28,282 nt of DNA from Candidatus Hydrogenedentota bacterium (GTDB taxonomy: Bacteria > Hydrogenedentota > Hydrogenedentia > Hydrogenedentales > JAGMZX01). The notes under the pieces are model-generated. The model had not been told where the DNA came from, made no database searches, and saw only the letters and a program-made list of their open reading frames with translations. Shown here one piece after another: positions 7,401-14,754 of the stretch; position 1 is the stretch's first letter; each line of letters begins with the position of its first letter. The DNA is taken from positions 1 through 28,282 of the forward strand of contig JAKQEQ010000002.1 of NCBI GenBank assembly GCA_029556545.1, in the 5' to 3' direction. The translations under genes were made by a program, and so were the position numbers.

Positions 7401-7417
7401 TGTTCCAATATGGAACA
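7401..7417. promoter_or_regulatory. Perfect 17-bp palindrome, operator candidate
   Basis: TGTTCCA (7401-7407), the 3-base spacer ATA, then TGGAACA (7411-7417) form a perfect 7-3-7 inverted repeat. It lies 18 bp after the PIG-L stop and about 105 bp before the sigma-factor start, a typical operator position. The GTTCC/GGAAC half-sites resemble those bound by several helix-turn-helix dimers. No cognate regulator is visible. Confidence 0.45.
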
Positions 7418-7521
7418 TAACGCGATCGACGTCGCGGATAAGGCCACAATAGAAGTGCATACGGCGAGGCACATATGATGACGCCTTGGGATACATGCCC
7501 GAGGCCGGGGAAGGAGCGCCG

Positions 7522-8115
7522 ATGCAACTGAAGGACGGCGACGTGGTGTGTCGTTGTCTTCAGGGTGACGCGGAAGCGTTTCGGACGCTGGTCCAGCGTT
7601 ACCAAGCAGCGGTGTATGCCACGGCCTTTTACTACGTCGGCCGCTACGGTGCGTCCGAGGATGTCGCTCAGGAAGCGTTCTGGGCGGCGTATCGGAGTCT
7701 ACCGCACCTGCGGGAGCCGGACCGGTTTGGGGCCTGGTTGCGCGAGATAACGTGCCGCACCGCGGCCAACTGGCTGCGGCGGCAGGGAAGGCGGCTGGCC
7801 AGCGAGACGCCGCTTCCCCATCGGCGCACCGTTTCAATTGAAGACGCGAGACAGGGGCCGCGGGGACGCGCCCAGGGCCGGGAACGCTTCGAGCGGGTGC
7901 AGCAAGCCATAGACTCGCTCCCGGAGCGCTACAGGCTTCCGGTCGTGCTCCGCTACCTCCAGGAACTCAGCTACGAGGAAATCAGCCGGTTTACCGGCGA
8001 GTCGCGGGATGAAATCCGCGGCATCCTTCATCGGGCGGGCCGCCAGCTTCGGGACTTGCTGGCGGACATCGACCAGAGTGAAGGGGAGATACAGTGGCCA
8101 CGTGCAGACAGATAG
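7522..8115 (+). CDS. ECF-type RNA polymerase sigma factor
   Basis: A sigma-70-family extracytoplasmic-function factor of 197 residues from ATG 7522. I prefer this start to the upstream in-frame ATG at 7486 because GGGGAAGGAG sits at the right distance. Region 2 runs from AFRTLVQRYQ through SEDVAQEAFWAAY to REITCRTAANWLRR. Region 4 is QAIDSLPERYRLPVVLRYLQE followed by the DNA-recognition helix around YEEISRFTGESRDEIRGILHRA. It directs RNA polymerase to its own regulon. The anti-sigma gene starts inside its 3' end (8094), so the two are translationally coupled and presumably autoregulated. The palindrome at 7401 may control the pair. Confidence 0.9.
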   Translation: MQLKDGDVVCRCLQGDAEAFRTLVQRYQAAVYATAFYYVGRYGASEDVAQEAFWAAYRSLPHLREPDRFGAWLREITCRTAANWLRRQGRRLASETPLPHRRTVSIEDARQGPRGRAQGRERFERVQQAIDSLPERYRLPVVLRYLQELSYEEISRFTGESRDEIRGILHRAGRQLRDLLADIDQSEGEIQWPRADR

Positions 8116-9380
8116 AGAGCCTGACCCAAGGCTATATCGACGGAGAAGTCAGCGACTCCGAGCGGCTCATTCTTGAAGAGCACGTCTCGGGGTGTCGTGT
8201 CTGCGACCGTGTACTCAAGCGACACAAGCAGAGCACCGCGCTGCTGTACGAGACTTTCGAGGCATACCGCCTTATCCAGGACCTGAGCGCGCCCGTGATG
8301 GCGCACCTGCCCGAAATGGACCGGGCGCCCTTGACGGCGCGGACGGTCCGGGAGGTGAACTGGCGCGCGAAGCATGAGACGGTCGGCATGAGCCGGCTGC
8401 TGCGCCTGCTTCCGGCACTGGCGCCCGTGCTCATCGTCGGGCTGGCCCTCGCCATCTTCTACTCCTGGCCCCAGAACGGCCACGCGCCGACCGAATCCAT
8501 CGGTATGGTCATGTTTTGCCAAGGCGAGGTGTCGCGCAGCAGCGAAGCCGGTCTGGACCCGCAAGGTGTGGACCTGAGCAGCCCCGTCGCGGCGGGGGAC
8601 CGTTTCGAGACCGGCAATGAGGCGGCCATGATGCTGTCGTTGGCGGGACCGACCGCGATCAAGGTCGCGGCGAATACGCGCGTCAAAATCCATAATGAAC
8701 GGCGCATCAGCGTCGAGCGCGGCCGCGCCTGGTTGCACGTCGGCAAGGACGTGCGGCTTTTCCGCGTGAATACCGCCATGGGCGACGCCGTGGTCTTCGG
8801 AACGACCTTCGACGTGCGGGTCGAGCAGGGTATGACGGTGGTTACCGTCGCCGATGGCTGTGTGCAGGTGGAAACCGACGTGGCCTTCCGGGAACTCAAC
8901 GCCGGAGAGCAGGCGACCCTCCGCATCGGCAAGCGCCCGCTGGACGTCCTCGCGGTGGACGCGCTTGCCGAATTGGCGTGGGCCGAGGCTATCGTGCCCG
9001 ACGGCAACGCGCAACTCGCCTTCGCCGATACGGTTGCGCCCAAATCGCCTGCGCCCATGGCGGCGGAACAGTTCTTTGTCGTACAGACGAACGGTCGCGC
9101 GGTCCAATCGCTCACGTTCGAGTGGAAACCGGCCGGGGATGTCGCCAATACGGGCGGCTATTACGTTTACGTCTATGACGACCAGATGAGCCAGTTGTTC
9201 AGTGACCATGTTCGGGCGGAGGTCTTTCAAATCCCGGACCGGCGGTCCGTGGATGTGGTGGTGCCGGGCGATCCCTTGCGTGACGTTCGGGTCCTGCACA
9301 TCAAGGTCGTGCCCGACGGGGACGCCGGAGAATCCGAGACCGTGTTTACGAAGGTCTCGGCATGGGGCATATACCCATGA
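8094..9380 (+). CDS. Transmembrane anti-sigma factor with FecR-like domain
   Basis: A 428-residue protein from GTG 8094, with GGGGAG at 8082-8087; it overlaps the sigma gene by 22 bp. Residues 1-45 contain a zinc-finger anti-sigma motif, H-x3-C-x2-C, in EEHVSGCRVCDRV. A transmembrane helix (PALAPVLIVGLALAIFY) follows near 108-124. The periplasmic part holds a FecR-like domain (GDRFETGNEAAMML, VKIHNERRISVERGRAWLHV, GTTFDVRVEQG) and a C-terminal beta-rich region. By family, the N-terminus holds the ECF sigma at the membrane and the periplasmic FecR domain senses a signal. The ligand is unknown and no TonB receptor lies nearby. Confidence 0.87.
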   Translation: MATCRQIESLTQGYIDGEVSDSERLILEEHVSGCRVCDRVLKRHKQSTALLYETFEAYRLIQDLSAPVMAHLPEMDRAPLTARTVREVNWRAKHETVGMSRLLRLLPALAPVLIVGLALAIFYSWPQNGHAPTESIGMVMFCQGEVSRSSEAGLDPQGVDLSSPVAAGDRFETGNEAAMMLSLAGPTAIKVAANTRVKIHNERRISVERGRAWLHVGKDVRLFRVNTAMGDAVVFGTTFDVRVEQGMTVVTVADGCVQVETDVAFRELNAGEQATLRIGKRPLDVLAVDALAELAWAEAIVPDGNAQLAFADTVAPKSPAPMAAEQFFVVQTNGRAVQSLTFEWKPAGDVANTGGYYVYVYDDQMSQLFSDHVRAEVFQIPDRRSVDVVVPGDPLRDVRVLHIKVVPDGDAGESETVFTKVSAWGIYP

Positions 9381-9400: not shown

Positions 9401-9439
9401 GACGCCGCACGCGCCGTGTTGAAACGGCACGGGGGCGTC
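9401..9439 (+). terminator. Hairpin after the anti-sigma gene, weak terminator candidate
   Basis: GACGCC (9401-9406) pairs with GGCGTC (9434-9439), and inner GCCGT (9413-9417) pairs with ACGGC (9424-9428). It lies 21 bp after the stop codon at 9380. No T-run follows, so it is at best a non-canonical terminator. Confidence 0.25.
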
Positions 9440-9465
9440 GTGCATAATGAAGATGCCCTTCTACA

Positions 9466-9562
9466 GGGAGACGGGTCTGCGGAGCGCACGGTTAGAATTC
9501 TGCCTCACGTCACTCCTTCCCCAAGAGTACCTGCAGCCAGTAAGCGAAGCAGGTCCGTCTCC
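9466..9562. repeat. Structured repeat unit 1
   Basis: The outer stem pairs 9467-9480 with 9549-9562 over 14 positions without mismatch if two G-U wobbles are allowed. The invariant core (9500-9538) starts CTGCCTCACG and ends CCTGCAGCC. Inside the core, CTGC can pair with GCAG, and GT(C)ACTC can pair with GAGTAC around a CTTCCCCAA loop. A 34-nt tail separates it from the spacer motif of unit 2. No known RNA family is recognised. Confidence 0.65.
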
Positions 9563-9596
9563 TTTATTTGTGAATCATTCCCTGGACAAGGGATTT

Positions 9597-9713
9597 CGGC
9601 CTCATACCCAAGCAACGGGAGACGGGTGAGCGACGCACACGGCTCGATTTCTGCCTCACGTCACTCCTTCCCCAAGAGTACCTGCAGCCGGCCGGCGCCG
9701 TTCACCCGTCTCC
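9597..9713. repeat. Structured repeat unit 2
   Basis: The unit begins with the spacer motif CGGCCTCATACCCAAGCAAC at 9597. The outer stem GGAGACGGGTGA (9618-9629) pairs perfectly with TCACCCGTCTCC (9702-9713), and ACGGC (9639-9643) pairs with GCCGT (9697-9701). The 39-base core at 9651-9689 is identical to that of unit 1. Confidence 0.7.
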
Positions 9714-9716
9714 ACC

Positions 9717-9831
9717 CGGCCTCATACCCAAGCAACGGGAGAGGCGCCTGCGTTCGGCGCCACGAGCAATCTGCCTCACGTCACTGCTCCCCCCAAGTAC
9801 CTGCAGCCTATCTGCCGCGCAGGGCCTCTCC
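9717..9831. repeat. Structured repeat unit 3
   Basis: The spacer motif is repeated exactly at 9717, a 120-bp period from unit 2. The outer stem has different sequence but still pairs: GGAGAGGC(G)CCTGCG at 9738-9752 with CGCAGGGCCTCTCC at 9818-9831, allowing one bulged G. The core at 9771-9808 has changes in the inner hairpin (GTCACT...AGTAC) that keep its pairing. Confidence 0.7.
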
Positions 9832-9886: not shown

Positions 9887-10015
9887 AAAAAAAGGGAGAC
9901 GGGTTTGCCAAGGTCTACGGCGCCGCGCCTGACGCCATCGTGTTCCATCTGACGCGTCCGTGGCGGCCAAGCGCCTGACTCAGCCCAAGCAACGGAAGAC
10001 CGGCAAACCCGTCTC
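9887..10015 (-). ncRNA. Divergent unit 4: long-loop hairpin with minus-strand T-run
   Basis: GAGACGGGTTTGCC (9896-9909) and GGCAAACCCGTCTC (10002-10015) form a perfect 14-bp inverted repeat around a 92-nt loop. The loop lacks the conserved core but holds CCCAAGCAACGGAAGAC at 9984-10000, a copy of the spacer motif. On the minus strand the stem is followed by CC and seven T (9887-9893), the layout of an intrinsic terminator. This suggests a short minus-strand transcript ending here. A possible minus-strand -10 (TAGAAT, 10161-10156) has no good -35. Confidence 0.4.
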
Positions 10016-10360
10016 GTGGATCGCTCCTGAACTCCGGGAGCGCAATCCAAAGTACGACCAACCTCTCGCGACGCGATCGGCTCACGTCGGCCTCTCTTAT
10101 TCACCACAGCCCTCCACGCGGTCACGACGACCGCGTCGCCGTCGTACTTGTAATAATTCTACCATCCGCCAGCGAGAAACGCGTAATCGGTACGGTATTT
10201 ATCAGTATTCGTAGATGTCGCGTATGGCCGCCGCCCGGGAACATTCGCAGCCTGATCCGTGTTCGGTATTACGAACTTTCTGCGCCGACTCCAACTCCGG
10301 CGCTCTGAGCGCCTGCGAGTCTCTGGTCCCGTGAGATCGCGCGGATTGGGAGAAAAGGAA
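10016..10360. other. Non-coding stretch upstream of the metal operon
   Basis: I see no convincing gene. The region holds a CGCTCC/GGAGCG hairpin (10022-10042), a 7-bp hairpin CGCGGTC/GACCGCG (10117-10135), GTTCG/CGAAC arms (10261-10276) and a perfect palindrome at 10299-10313. It presumably contains the promoter and operators of the downstream operon. Confidence 0.4.
10299..10313. promoter_or_regulatory. Palindrome upstream of the DtxR-type regulator
   Basis: GGCGCTC (10299-10305), a single T, then GAGCGCC (10307-10313) form a perfect 7-1-7 inverted repeat. It lies 48 bp before the preferred start of the regulator. It could be an autoregulatory operator or a leader hairpin. It does not resemble the AT-rich MntR or IdeR consensus. 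Confidence 0.3.
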
Positions 10361-10816
10361 GTGTCCCGGACGCTGACGCACACCGGCGTATCGCCGCATC
10401 AGGAAGATTATCTCGAAGCCATCTTCTGGCTGACCCAGGAGGATCGCGTCGCCCGCTCTCGGGATATCACGCGCCGTATGGGAGTCACCAAATCCACCGT
10501 GACCGGCGCGTTGCGTCAATTACGTGCGGACGGCTTGGTGAACTACGCCCCGTACAGTTACGTGACATTGACCCGCGAGGGACTCGCCATCGCCCGCAAC
10601 GTGGCGCGGCGGCACGCGGTCCTGCGCGAGTTCCTCTGTCGCATACTCGGCATGGACTACGACGCGGCGGATGCGCTGGCGTGCGCGTTCGAGCACAGCA
10701 TCGACGCCGCCGCGCTGGATCGCTTCGAGGCGTTCCTCGAATTCGCCGCGTCGGACGCGCCGGACCTCCGGCAGTGGATCGAGCGGCAGCAGGCCCGCCG
10801 CAAGGAGGAGAATTGA
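10361..10816 (+). CDS. DtxR/MntR-family metal-dependent transcriptional regulator
   Basis: A 151-residue protein when started at GTG 10361, which places SPHQEDYLEAIFWL at the N-terminus as in DtxR/MntR proteins; an in-frame GTG at 10259 would add 34 untypical residues. A winged helix (SRDITRRMGVTKSTVTGALRQLRADGLV) is followed by the dimerisation/metal domain (RRHAVLREFLCRILGMD). Primary-site ligands C, E and H appear in ACAFEH, the pattern of iron-type DtxR (ACRWEH) rather than manganese-type MntR. It is the first gene of the metal-uptake operon and probably represses it when metal is plentiful. The C-terminal SH3-like domain of DtxR is absent, as in MntR. Confidence 0.85.
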   Translation: MSRTLTHTGVSPHQEDYLEAIFWLTQEDRVARSRDITRRMGVTKSTVTGALRQLRADGLVNYAPYSYVTLTREGLAIARNVARRHAVLREFLCRILGMDYDAADALACAFEHSIDAAALDRFEAFLEFAASDAPDLRQWIERQQARRKEEN

Positions 10817-10821
10817 CTCGA

Positions 10822-11745
10822 ATGAGCCGAATACTCCTAGTTGTGCCGGTCCTGATCGCGGCCGCATGCATAGCCTCGTGCGGCGGCGCGCCCGGCGCGG
10901 CGGATACCGGACGCCCGCGGATAACCACCACGACGGGCATGATCGCGGACGCGGCCCGAAACGTCGGGGGCGACCTGGTCGAAGTCCGGGAACTCATGGG
11001 CCCGGGGGTTGATCCGCACCTTTACAAGGCGACCCAGGGCGACTTGCGGCGGCTGCGCGAATCGGACCTGATCCTGTACAACGGTCTGCATCTCGAGGGG
11101 CGCATGGGCGAGACGCTCGAACAGATGGCGCGCCGCACGCGCGTTGTCCAGGTGACGGACACCATCCCCGAAGCGCGGCTGCGCCGCCCGCTGGACATGG
11201 AGGGTCAGTACGACCCGCACGTCTGGTTCGACGTGTCGCTGTGGCGCCTGGTCGTCGAGCGCATCCGAGACGCCCTGATCGAAATGGACCCGGCCCATCG
11301 CGAGGTCTATGCGCGGAACGCTACGGCCTATCTCGATGATCTCGACGAACTGCACGCCTATTGCCTGCGACGGATCGCGGAAATCCCCGAGGGCCGGCGC
11401 GTGCTCATCACGGCGCATGACGCCTTCGGCTACTTCGGGCGCGCATACGGCATCGAAATCCTCGGCGTTCAGGGCGTCAGCACGGCGGCGGAGTACGGGC
11501 TTCAGGACATTACGCGGCTCGTTGACCTCATCGTGTCCCGACGCGTCAAGGCGGTCTTCGTCGAGTCTTCCGTCCCGCCGCGATCCATCCATGCCCTTAT
11601 CGAGGGCGCGCGCGCGAAGGGTCACGAGGTGCGGCTGGGCGGCGAACTCTACTCGGACGCGCTGGGACCGGCGGGCGCGCCGGAAGGCACATACGCGGGC
11701 ATGGTGCGCCATAACGTGGACACGATTGTGGAGGCGCTGACGTAA
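10822..11745 (+). CDS. Metal ABC transporter substrate-binding lipoprotein (TroA/ZnuA-like)
   Basis: A 307-residue lipoprotein. ATG 10822 follows AAGGAGGAG at 10802-10810; a TTG at 10813 is an alternative start. The signal ends in a lipobox, CIASC, so the protein should be tethered to a membrane facing the periplasm. It belongs to the cluster A-I zinc/manganese-binding family. Candidate ligands are His in DPHLYK, His in DPHVWFD, His in TAHDAFGYFGRAYG and Asp in LYSDALG. The third ligand is His, as in TroA and ZnuA, not Glu as in PsaA. The segment GVQGVSTAAEYG and the end EGTYAGMVRHNVDTI are very TroA-like. The selected metal (Zn, Mn or Fe) cannot be fixed from sequence. Confidence 0.9.
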   Translation: MSRILLVVPVLIAAACIASCGGAPGAADTGRPRITTTTGMIADAARNVGGDLVEVRELMGPGVDPHLYKATQGDLRRLRESDLILYNGLHLEGRMGETLEQMARRTRVVQVTDTIPEARLRRPLDMEGQYDPHVWFDVSLWRLVVERIRDALIEMDPAHREVYARNATAYLDDLDELHAYCLRRIAEIPEGRRVLITAHDAFGYFGRAYGIEILGVQGVSTAAEYGLQDITRLVDLIVSRRVKAVFVESSVPPRSIHALIEGARAKGHEVRLGGELYSDALGPAGAPEGTYAGMVRHNVDTIVEALT

Positions 11746-12540
11746 ATGGACTCGTCGGTTGCGGCGCCGCCGGTCGAAGTGCATGACCTGACCGTGGCCT
11801 ATCATCACCGTCCGGCATTGTGGGACATAGACCTGGCTTTCCCGGCGGGAAAACTGATTGCCATCGTGGGGCCGAACGGCGCGGGCAAGAGCACGCTCAT
11901 CAAGGCGATTATGGGCCTGACGCCCCTGGCGTCCGGGTACGTGCGCATCTTCGGCCAGCCGCCCGAACGCGCGCGAAACGCGGCCGCCTACGTCCCGCAG
12001 CGCGAGTCCGTGGATTGGGACTTTCCGACCAACGCGCTCGACGTCGTGCTTATGGGCCGCTACGGCCAATTGCCGCTGTTCGCGCGTCCGCGCCGCCGCG
12101 ATCGCGAGATCGCGATGCAGTGCCTCGAAAAGGTGGGCATGGCGGATTATGCCCGCCGCCAGATCAGCCAGTTGTCCGGCGGCCAGCAGCAGCGGGTCTT
12201 CCTCGCGCGGGCATTGGCGCAACAGACGCGGCTGTACCTGATGGACGAGCCGTTCGCGGGCGTGGACGCGGCCACGGAGCAGGCAATCGTGACGCTGTTG
12301 CGCGACTTGCGCGGGCAAGGCTGCACCGTGATCGTCGTTCACCACGACTTGCAGTCCGTGCCTGAGTATTTTGACTGGGCGCTCCTGCTCAACCTTCGCG
12401 CCGTCGCGTTCGGGCCCGTGGAAGAGGCGTTCTCTCCGGAGAACCTTCAGAATGCTTACGGCGGGCGGCTTAATCTGCTGTCCGACGTCCACGAGCGGTT
12501 GCGGCGCGCCGAGTGGAGTTCGCGGCATGGCGATGGATGA
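11746..12540 (+). CDS. Metal ABC transporter ATP-binding protein
   Basis: A 264-residue ATPase starting at the base immediately after the lipoprotein stop. Walker A is GPNGAGKST near residue 45, the Q-loop is in AYVPQRESVDWDFP, the signature is LSGGQQQR near 145, Walker B is LYLMDEPFAGVD near 165, and the switch histidine is in VVHHDLQSV. The QRESVDWDFP sequence after the Q-loop is typical of manganese/zinc (MntB/TroB/ZnuC-like) ATPases. It powers import through the two permeases encoded downstream. Its last 14 bases overlap the next gene, so translation is coupled. Confidence 0.93.
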   Translation: MDSSVAAPPVEVHDLTVAYHHRPALWDIDLAFPAGKLIAIVGPNGAGKSTLIKAIMGLTPLASGYVRIFGQPPERARNAAAYVPQRESVDWDFPTNALDVVLMGRYGQLPLFARPRRRDREIAMQCLEKVGMADYARRQISQLSGGQQQRVFLARALAQQTRLYLMDEPFAGVDAATEQAIVTLLRDLRGQGCTVIVVHHDLQSVPEYFDWALLLNLRAVAFGPVEEAFSPENLQNAYGGRLNLLSDVHERLRRAEWSSRHGDG

Positions 12541-13864
12541 CGTGGCCGCTTCCTGGGTGCGCTTCTTCACGTTTTCGAGCGTGAACGTCGCCTACGTGGC
12601 AATCGGGTGCGTCCTGCTGGGCGCGGCCGCCGGCATGGTCGGCTGTTTCGCCTTTCTGCGTAAGCGTTCCCTGCTGGGCGACGCGCTCGCCCATGCGGCG
12701 CTGCCCGGCATCTGCGTCGCCTTCCTCCTCACCGGGTCGAAGGACCCTGTCGTCATCCTGCTCGGCGCGGTGGCATCCTGTTGGATTGGCGCACTTACCG
12801 TGGACTGGATTACGCGTTGCACGCGCTGCAAGGAAGACAGCGCCCTTGGTATCGTCCTGTCCGTCTTCTTCGGCGTCGGCATCCTCCTGCTCACGCATAT
12901 TCAGCACTCCGGCAATGCGGCGCAGGCGGGCCTCGACCGTTTTCTCTTCGGACAGGCCGCCGGGCTTGTGGCGCGGGACGTCAAAATCCTCGCGGGAACC
13001 GCGGTGCTTCTGTGTTGCGTTGTGGCGCTGTTGTACAAGGAATTCAAGGTCATTTTATTCGATCCCGACTTCGCTCGCGCGGCGGGCCTCCCGGTGCGCC
13101 GCCTCGAAATCGCGCTCGCGACGGTCATCGTCCTCGCGGTCGGCATCGGCCTGCAGGCTGTTGGCGTCGTACTCATGGCGGCCATGCTCGTGACGCCCGC
13201 CGCCGCGGCGCGGTACTGGACCGATCGCCTGAGCGCCATGCTTGCGCTCGCCGCCGTCTTAGGCGGCGTCAGCGGCGCGCTCGGCGCTTGGGCGAGTTAC
13301 GTCGCCGCCCGCATGCCGACCGGGCCGTGGATGGTCGTGTGCGTCACGGGCCTGTTCTTCGCCTCCTTCCTTCTTGCGCCGGGCCGCGGTCTCGCGGCGC
13401 GGCTGCTCCGCCTGCGCCGGTTCCGGCGCAAAACCGCCGTCGAGAACCTGCTGCGTACGCTCTACCAGTTCGGGGAAGCCGGCCAAGATTGGAATACCCC
13501 GCGCTCGCTGCCGGAACTCCTCGAACGACGCGGCGCCTCGATGCGGGAATTGCGGCGTACGCTCGCCCGGCTCGGACGCGCGGGGCTCGTATCCGAAGCC
13601 GCGCCCGGCATGTTCACCCTCACGGCGGACGGCGCGGCGCGCGGCGCCCGAGTAACGCGCGTGCATCGGCTCTGGGAGGTGTACCTGACGCGCAAGCTCG
13701 AGATAGCGCCGGACCGCGTGCACGACGACGCGGAGGAAATCGAGCACGTGCTGACGCCGGAGCTCGAGCGGCGGCTCGCCGAGACCCTCGAATACCCCGA
13801 GCGCGATCCGCACGGCAGCCGCATTCCACGCGCGGGGCGAATCTCGATATCGCAAGGAACATGA
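12527..13864 (+). CDS. Metal ABC transporter permease fused to a C-terminal DtxR-type regulator domain
   Basis: A 445-residue protein from ATG 12527 (ATG 12533 also possible). Residues 1-290 are an ABC-3 family permease with about eight transmembrane helices and typical segments such as RKRSLLGDALAHAALPG and AVGVVLMAAMLVTPAA. From about residue 300 a cytoplasmic winged helix (ENLLRTLYQF, then SMRELRRTLARLGRAGLV) leads into a DtxR-type dimerisation/metal domain. HRLWE and VHDDAEEIEH supply H, E, H, E, E, H, aligning with DtxR H79, E83, H98, residue 102, E105 and H106. Residue 102 is Glu as in MntR. The ending DPHGSRIP is also typical of the family. The domain probably senses imported metal on the cytoplasmic face; regulation of transport or DNA binding are both possible. 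Confidence 0.9.
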   Translation: MAMDDVAASWVRFFTFSSVNVAYVAIGCVLLGAAAGMVGCFAFLRKRSLLGDALAHAALPGICVAFLLTGSKDPVVILLGAVASCWIGALTVDWITRCTRCKEDSALGIVLSVFFGVGILLLTHIQHSGNAAQAGLDRFLFGQAAGLVARDVKILAGTAVLLCCVVALLYKEFKVILFDPDFARAAGLPVRRLEIALATVIVLAVGIGLQAVGVVLMAAMLVTPAAAARYWTDRLSAMLALAAVLGGVSGALGAWASYVAARMPTGPWMVVCVTGLFFASFLLAPGRGLAARLLRLRRFRRKTAVENLLRTLYQFGEAGQDWNTPRSLPELLERRGASMRELRRTLARLGRAGLVSEAAPGMFTLTADGAARGARVTRVHRLWEVYLTRKLEIAPDRVHDDAEEIEHVLTPELERRLAETLEYPERDPHGSRIPRAGRISISQGT

Positions 13865-14754
13865 CGGTCATGGCGGATGCCTTCTGGATCATTTTGGTCG
13901 GCGCGCTGGCGGCAAGCGCCTGCGGCGTGATCGGCTGCTTCCTGGTGCTGCGGCGTCAGGCCATGATGGGCGACGCCATCAGCCACGGCGTCCTGCCCGG
14001 AATCGTGATCGCGTTCGTTATGACCGGATCGCGCAATATTGCGCCCATGTTCCTGGCCGCGGGCGCGATGGGGCTGCTTACAGCGTTTCTGACCGACGTG
14101 CTGGCGCGGCGGGGCCGCCTGCAATCGGACGCGGCGATGGGCGTTACGTTCACGTGGTTGTTCGCCGTCGGCGTTATTCTCGTTACGCGCTACGCCGACG
14201 CGGTAGATCTGGACGTCGAGTGCGTTCTCTACGGCGAGATTCTGTTCACCCCCTTCAATCGCTTCGAATGGGGGGGCTTCGACTTGGGGCCGAAGGCCGT
14301 TTGGACCACCGGCGCCGCCTTGGCCGCGAACGCGGTATTCCTGACGCTCGGCTACCCGAAACTCAAGCTATGCACCTTCGATCCCGGACTGGCCGCCGCG
14401 CTCGGCGTGCGCGTCGCCCTCTGGCATTACCTGCTCATGGCCTTCACGTCGATGACGACCGTGGCATGCTTCGAAAGCGTGGGCGCGGTGCTCGTGGTGG
14501 CCATGTTGATCGCGCCCGCGAATACGGCTTACCTACTGACGGACCGACTCTCGATCATGCTGGCGATCGCGGCGGTTGTCGGCGTGATCAGCGCGGTCTC
14601 GGGCTATCTGCTGGCCTACCAACTCGATGGCGCGATCGCCGCCGGAATGACGGTGACGAGCGGCGCGCTGTTTGCCTTGGCCGCCCTCTTCTCGCCGCGT
14701 CACGGCGTCGTGACCCGCGCGTGGCGACGGGTCCGGGTGAAGACGCCGGGATGA
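13861..14754 (+). CDS. Metal ABC transporter permease (second subunit)
   Basis: A 297-residue ABC-3 family integral membrane protein with about eight hydrophobic helices, overlapping the previous gene by ATGA. It shows the family pattern RRQAMMGDAISHGVLPGIVIAF near residue 35 and VGAVLVVAMLIAPANTAYLLTDRL near 215. It has no regulatory tail, unlike its paired permease. The two permeases presumably form a heterodimeric channel with the ATPase and TroA-like lipoprotein. It is the last gene of the five-gene operon. A palindrome (14766-14785) lies 12 bp after its stop, without a T-run. Confidence 0.92.
   Translation: MTVMADAFWIILVGALAASACGVIGCFLVLRRQAMMGDAISHGVLPGIVIAFVMTGSRNIAPMFLAAGAMGLLTAFLTDVLARRGRLQSDAAMGVTFTWLFAVGVILVTRYADAVDLDVECVLYGEILFTPFNRFEWGGFDLGPKAVWTTGAALAANAVFLTLGYPKLKLCTFDPGLAAALGVRVALWHYLLMAFTSMTTVACFESVGAVLVVAMLIAPANTAYLLTDRLSIMLAIAAVVGVISAVSGYLLAYQLDGAIAAGMTVTSGALFALAALFSPRHGVVTRAWRRVRVKTPG

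Follow-up and report, generated by a model that had tools for sequence, protein, structure and literature searches.

A tandem array of structured RNA units behind an ECF sigma/anti-sigma operon in Candidatus Hydrogenedentota, with complementarity to the sigma leader

The locus

The stretch of DNA analysed here (the window, 28,282 nt) carries on its forward strand an ECF sigma factor gene (7486..8115; Pfam Sigma70_r2, r4 and r4_2; TIGR02937) and an anti-sigma gene with zf-HC2 and FecR domains (8094..9380; PF13490, PF04773), followed on the same strand by an array of three hairpin units. Comparison with orthologues indicates that the true start of the sigma gene is likely the ATG at 7522, after GGGGAAGGAGCGCCG. 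The Shine-Dalgarno region of this gene, GGGGAAGGAG (7507..7516), is complementary to the array-core segment CUCCUUCCCC, and 119 nt before the ATG starts the forward-strand palindrome TTCCAATATGGAAC (7403..7416), a putative operator or promoter-upstream element, with CCAC 27 nt past its end.

Unit 1 is a 97-nt hairpin (9466..9562) with the outer stem GGAGACGGGTCTGC/GCAGGTCCGTCTCC and a core at 9500-9538, and scores 103 bits against our covariance model R1, which was built from 47 units. Unit 2 (9617..9713) has the outer stem GGAGACGGGTGAGCG/CGTTCACCCGTCTCC and the same core, with a fold z of -5.7, and unit 3 (9737..9831), with the outer stem GGAGAGGC../..GCCTCTCC and a diverged core (ACTGCTCCCCCCAAGT), scores 64.7 bits. 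The sequence bears out the preliminary description of this DNA, which had reported three units with a near-identical core and an exact spacer repeat: the unit-to-unit spacings are 151 (units 1-2) and 120 (units 2-3), and the 26-nt spacer motif CGGCCTCATACCCAAGCAACGGGAGA, read on the forward strand at 9597..9622, recurs exactly at 9717-9742. A partial third copy of this motif (CTCAGCCCAAGCAACGG, about 9979-9995) lies within a fourth forward-strand hairpin (9896..10015), which that description does not list and which has perfect 14-bp arms (GAGACGGGTTTGCC/GGCAAACCCGTCTC) without the core and gives no match to R1; its arms covary, with compensated changes, between the window and a congener (G001). 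No other locus in the window's own genome carries the array.

A weak candidate sigma70-like promoter, TTGAAA-18-CATAAT, can be read in the forward strand at 9419..9448, preceding unit 1; in a comparison of 3' UTRs neither its position nor its sequence was kept across loci. The units were also considered as intrinsic terminators. Runs of at least four T follow 12 of 76 units and precede 14 of 76; as they are not commoner after units than before, most units are not intrinsic terminators.

Synteny with the sigma/anti-sigma operon

In all 40 loci inspected first, which represent 10 of 11 families, the array immediately follows the ECF sigma/zf-HC2-FecR operon on the same strand, with the first core 32-222 nt past the anti-sigma stop codon; in one locus (L054) the array begins at the stop codon itself. 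Later loci show the same synteny except where the contig ends there. This partner operon, like the match of the conserved loops to the ribosome-binding site of its sigma gene, had escaped the preliminary description. The anti-sigma gene is found in 57 of 68 genomes, and its co-occurrence with the array is strong (the two are found together in 51 genomes, both are absent from 9, 2 carry the array only and 6 the anti-sigma gene only; Fisher p 5e-6). Both array-only genomes have their array at a contig end with the operon off the contig. Among the anti-sigma-only genomes, the array of one (G022) is truncated where a contig starts, and another (G052) is a contig-edge fragment. The remaining four (L117-L120, g13) belong to a single genus, counted as one loss event, in which the array has truly been lost while operon and promoter are kept.

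The palindrome, TTCCANNNTGGAAC, is conserved upstream of the sigma gene, often with GTG 5 nt past it. The distance to the CCAC that follows is 27 nt in 36 of 55 genomes and 28 nt in 4. Among the 68 genomes the full spaced pattern occurs at this operon only. Palindrome and CCAC together (7403-7447 in the window; 55 loci) probably serve autoregulation as an operator/promoter. A further motif, (A)CAGTTGAATC or CAGTTTAA, is seen about 42 nt past the palindrome in many sigma leaders (families f7, f9, f10 and others), and in f3, f4 and f10 (for example L045, L049, L069 and L070) also in the stretch from the FecR stop codon to unit 1.

On the other side of the array, positions 10259-14754 of the window contain an ordinary metal-uptake operon: a gene for an MntR/DtxR-type regulator, then ZnuA, ZnuC and two ZnuB-like genes. 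We considered the array as a cis-regulator of these genes and rejected this, as they adjoin the array in only some relatives, whereas sigma and FecR genes stand upstream in 40 of 40 loci.

Distribution

Model R1 finds the element in 53 of 68 Candidatus Hydrogenedentota genomes, in each carrier as a single array at a single locus, with one unit in 23 genomes, two in 19, three in 10 and four in one. With unit 2 as the blastn query, most genomes of the same order match and nothing outside the order is convincing. An exact-pattern scan of 84,980 species gave Candidatus Hydrogenedentota as the hosts of the element. Additional matches to the exact pattern in Pseudomonas, Akkermansia, Zavarzinella, Brasilonema, Synechococcaceae and a proteobacterial MAG receive no support from the covariance model and are attributed to chance, and contigs labelled Rhodothermaeota and Nitrospiraceae that do carry the element appear to correspond to two Hydrogenedentota genomes of families f3 and f4. 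A search of 318 genomes outside the phylum with R1 returned no match.

Rfam (release 15) gave nothing at gathering threshold for the window, with only chance-level matches to miRNAs and leaders (E 1.7-6.8), in agreement with the initial reading that no known RNA family was recognisable. A search of the literature on small RNAs or riboswitches in Hydrogenedentes found nothing relevant. The array appears to be a phylum-wide structured RNA family that is so far undescribed.

Structure and strand

Across the phylum, all 12 pairs of the outer stem show changes on both sides, and 88% of structure cells are paired, against at most 54% in slid controls. This upholds, on the scale of the phylum, the earlier proposals that the stems differ yet stay paired and that the structure is under selection, homologues with retained pairing having been recovered by the covariance model. 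With scoring symmetric for G-U and A-C, stems contain 171 G-U wobbles and 41 A-C mismatches, and 39 arrays lean towards G-U against 3 towards A-C. This excess identifies the folded molecule as RNA of the operon strand, not a DNA hairpin nor an RNA of the opposite strand, and an array of DNA hairpins is not supported. Tandem non-coding RNA is the best of the three options originally offered.

The core, in contrast to the stem, is conserved as sequence and without covariation. Its inner hairpin (CUGC/GCAG and GUcACUC/GAGUAC) had been described as varying while keeping its pairing. The pairing is indeed mostly kept, mainly through conservation of sequence, while covariation is nearly absent: both-sided change, even a single instance, is confined to 1 of 10 pairs, one of two pairs is broken in 13-16 of 47 units, and in family f4 two pairs are disrupted. 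The core has two stretches that are predicted to be unpaired, the apical loop CUUCCCCAA (within CUCCUUCCCCAAG) and the internal loop GCCUCAC. In the predicted folds the unpaired share is 83% for CUUCCCC of the apical loop and 72% for CUCAC of the internal loop, compared with 36% for the whole unit. Another feature of the core is that the stretch GUCACUCCUU (9508-9517 in the window) resembles the 16S rRNA 3' tail AUCACCUCCUU, minus one C.

Complementarity to the sigma leader

The apical loop CUUCCCCAA is complementary to the Shine-Dalgarno region of the sigma gene, (C)UUGGGGAAGG(AG), and the internal loop GCCUCAC to GUGAGGCA, which lies some tens of nucleotides further upstream in the sigma leader. 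The reverse complements of both exposed segments stand in the leader, as the ribosome-binding site (CUU)GGGGAAGG(AG) and as GUGAGGCA. We scored contiguous complementarity instead of ranking whole-duplex energies; RNAduplex bridges long loops. The controls were the starts of 387 other genes in these loci, after removal of two 14-nt matches that proved to be antisense starts within the array. Of 51 sigma leaders, 22 have a contiguous complement to the loop over at least 8 nt, against 1 of 387 controls, and 19 have one of at least 9 nt, against 0 of 387. For the internal loop, complements of at least 7 nt are found in 18 of 51 leaders versus 8 of 387 controls, and both complements together (loop at least 7, internal loop at least 6) in 16 leaders versus a single control.

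The match is unevenly spread over the families. A loop complement of at least 7 nt is found in f1 (2/2), f2 (1/1), f3 (4/5), f7 (1/1), f8 (1/1), f9 (3/3), f10 (8/16) and f11 (2/2), while in f4 (2/16), f5 (0/1) and f6 (0/3) the array is kept and the sigma leader is mostly or wholly without the match. In the genus that has lost the array, none of the four sigma leaders contains GGGGAAGG. When leaders and cores were exchanged between families, no overall signal of coevolution emerged (24 better, 22 worse), as expected because the core hardly varies.

The complementary segment GGGGAAGG is itself Shine-Dalgarno-like, so that the match could be partly generic; the controls argue otherwise. In addition, the anti-SD end of the 16S rRNA is canonical in the window's genome (G000), which makes the match to GGGGAAGG more specific than generic SD pairing. 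The order of the two leader sites precludes a single unit from pairing with both in one collinear duplex, so simultaneous pairing needs two units or two molecules.

A related pattern is seen at a second place in both species of the window's genus (L195, ~922, G000:C192:156922; L196, ~934, G001:C111:12434), downstream of a gene that we take to be lgt-like from its translated sequence. Here, a sigma70-like promoter is followed by GAGGCAGA..GGGGAAGG, complementary to the array core, and this site may possibly encode a sponge or target RNA.

Proposed mechanism and alternatives

On the most economical reading, to which we give somewhat better than even weight, the array may be a tandem small-RNA array in the 3' UTR that represses its own sigma operon by pairing with the Shine-Dalgarno region. 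Behind this reading stand conservation, synteny, strand, stem covariation, predicted exposure of the loops and complementarity. In each unit, a long, freely varying, GC-rich stem would present the invariant core with its two unpaired stretches. Transcription of the operon would co-produce the array, which could then be released or used as small RNAs; these would base-pair with the sigma mRNA at its Shine-Dalgarno region, limiting sigma translation. The outcome would be a dosage-dependent negative feedback on sigma, beside that of the protein anti-sigma factor. Multiple units may provide more small RNA per transcript, or two of them may occupy both leader sites together. It is probable that the array also acts on mRNAs other than that of sigma, since f4 and f6 keep the core without a match in the sigma leader.

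This last point bears on a wider alternative, in which the array would be a trans-acting anti-Shine-Dalgarno small-RNA array of the CcsR/AbcR type, its invariant loops repressing many mRNAs, with the sigma mRNA as one target or none and the sigma operon as the transcriptional driver. The near-invariance of the core loop in f4 and f6, despite an unmatched sigma leader, is what would be expected of a seed with many targets, and both CcsR1-4 and AbcR are tandem small RNAs, the latter with exposed CU-rich anti-SD motifs. However, searching the 68 genomes for the double motif or an extended loop complement before an ATG revealed no recurrent gene family, and once the sigma leaders are set aside the matches are few and near the backward-pattern control. 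We regard this alternative as unlikely, though worth keeping in mind.

The complementarity to the sigma leader would also fit a cis element that would stay in the operon mRNA and set its translation or lifetime, by pairing with the 5' leader or by shielding the 3' end, without any free small RNA. The fixed position right after the operon (at the stop codon in L054) and the long stable stems are consistent with this. However, 3'-end protection needs neither tandem copies nor invariant loops, and in the OppZ precedent autoregulation proceeds without long-distance intramolecular pairing (PMC7398697); we give a cis element a low probability.

A protein-binding RNA array, in which a phylum-specific RNA-binding protein would read the core and be titrated or recruited in a CsrB-like manner, would account for a sequence-conserved core on a freely varying stem and for the tandem multiplicity. 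The core also resembles the 16S rRNA 3' tail (UCACUCCUU versus UCACCUCCUU), and a protein that recognises the anti-SD end could find a mimic of it here. Such an array would nevertheless leave the complementarity of both exposed segments to the sigma leader unexplained, and no candidate protein was found, which makes it an improbable account. Finally, the tandem arrangement of inverted repeats, together with their variable arms and repeated spacers, might suggest a DNA-level element (a mobile palindrome, as raised in the preliminary description, a MITE, an attC-like site or recombination/binding hairpins), but this can be set aside almost entirely, mainly through the G-U excess, a mark of strand-specific RNA pairing, and the synteny, and also through the single locus at a fixed position in each genome and ends that are not conserved.

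More broadly, and with a little less than even confidence, we propose that the array represents a phylum-defining RNA class, in which an ECF sigma/anti-sigma operon has built into its 3' end a tandem small-RNA array that would read the operon's own Shine-Dalgarno sequence via two exposed loops, forming a copy-number-graded RNA brake atop the anti-sigma brake. If the pairing is functional, one transcript would encode an ECF sigma factor, its membrane anti-sigma factor and an RNA silencing that very message, with two independent layers of negative feedback hard-wired in a single operon. How many units an array has (1-4), and which families have lost the match in the leader, amount to natural experiments on the evolution of such feedback, and the structured RNA family comes with a ready, testable hypothesis.

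Comparison with known systems

Integron attC sites have conserved R'/R'' ends and a variable centre, whereas the array has a conserved centre and variable ends, as had been pointed out at the outset. Copies of REP elements and MITEs are dispersed, in contrast to an array confined to one locus per genome.

Among small RNAs, four systems resemble the array, and none of them joins a tandem array to a sigma/anti-sigma operon, sequence kinship being judged through Rfam alone. The exposed loops of the CcsR/CIN1 RNAs are C-rich, with the loop motif CCUCCUCCC. The array likewise consists of 1-4 tandem homologous stem-loops with a C-rich loop, CUUCCCCAA; this loop, however, reads CUCCUUCCCCAAGAG rather than CCUCCUCCC. 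In layout, CcsR1-4/CIN1 (the 'cuckoo' RNAs of Alphaproteobacteria) are by analogy the nearest to the array: they are tandem homologous small RNAs behind a protein gene, share one transcript from an alternative-sigma promoter and undergo RNase E processing (PMC10253847). They differ in that their partner gene encodes a DUF1127 RNA-binding protein, where the array follows a zf-HC2-FecR anti-sigma gene, and in belonging to another phylum with a different core; the array is without an Rfam match.

In logic, the closest analogues are OppZ and CarZ of Vibrio cholerae, where the 3' UTR of an operon encodes a small RNA inhibiting the translation of the very transcript that contains it (PMC7398697). 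The array shares with them its place in the 3' UTR on the operon strand (40/40 loci) and, save largely for f4 and wholly for f5 and f6, loops complementary to a translation start of the same operon. OppZ and CarZ are, however, single small RNAs of metabolic operons and experimentally proven, whereas for the array the case is one of complementarity and synteny.

In its anti-SD loops the array compares best with AbcR1/AbcR2 (alpha-r15), tandem small RNAs whose two exposed CU-rich anti-SD motifs are thought to bind ribosome-binding sites (PMC7143759). In contrast to the array, these are stand-alone intergenic genes that bind Hfq and have many ABC-transporter targets, without a link to a sigma operon. 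For feedback by a small RNA on an ECF sigma factor, the nearest analogy is StsR of Rhodobacter sphaeroides, which is under alternative sigma factors, pairs with the mRNA of the ECF sigma factor gene rpoE and lowers its level (PMC8307010). StsR is a single-copy RNA encoded elsewhere, and it pairs at a site beyond the start codon, whereas the array lies at the 3' end of the sigma operon itself and its loops match the leader ahead of the start.
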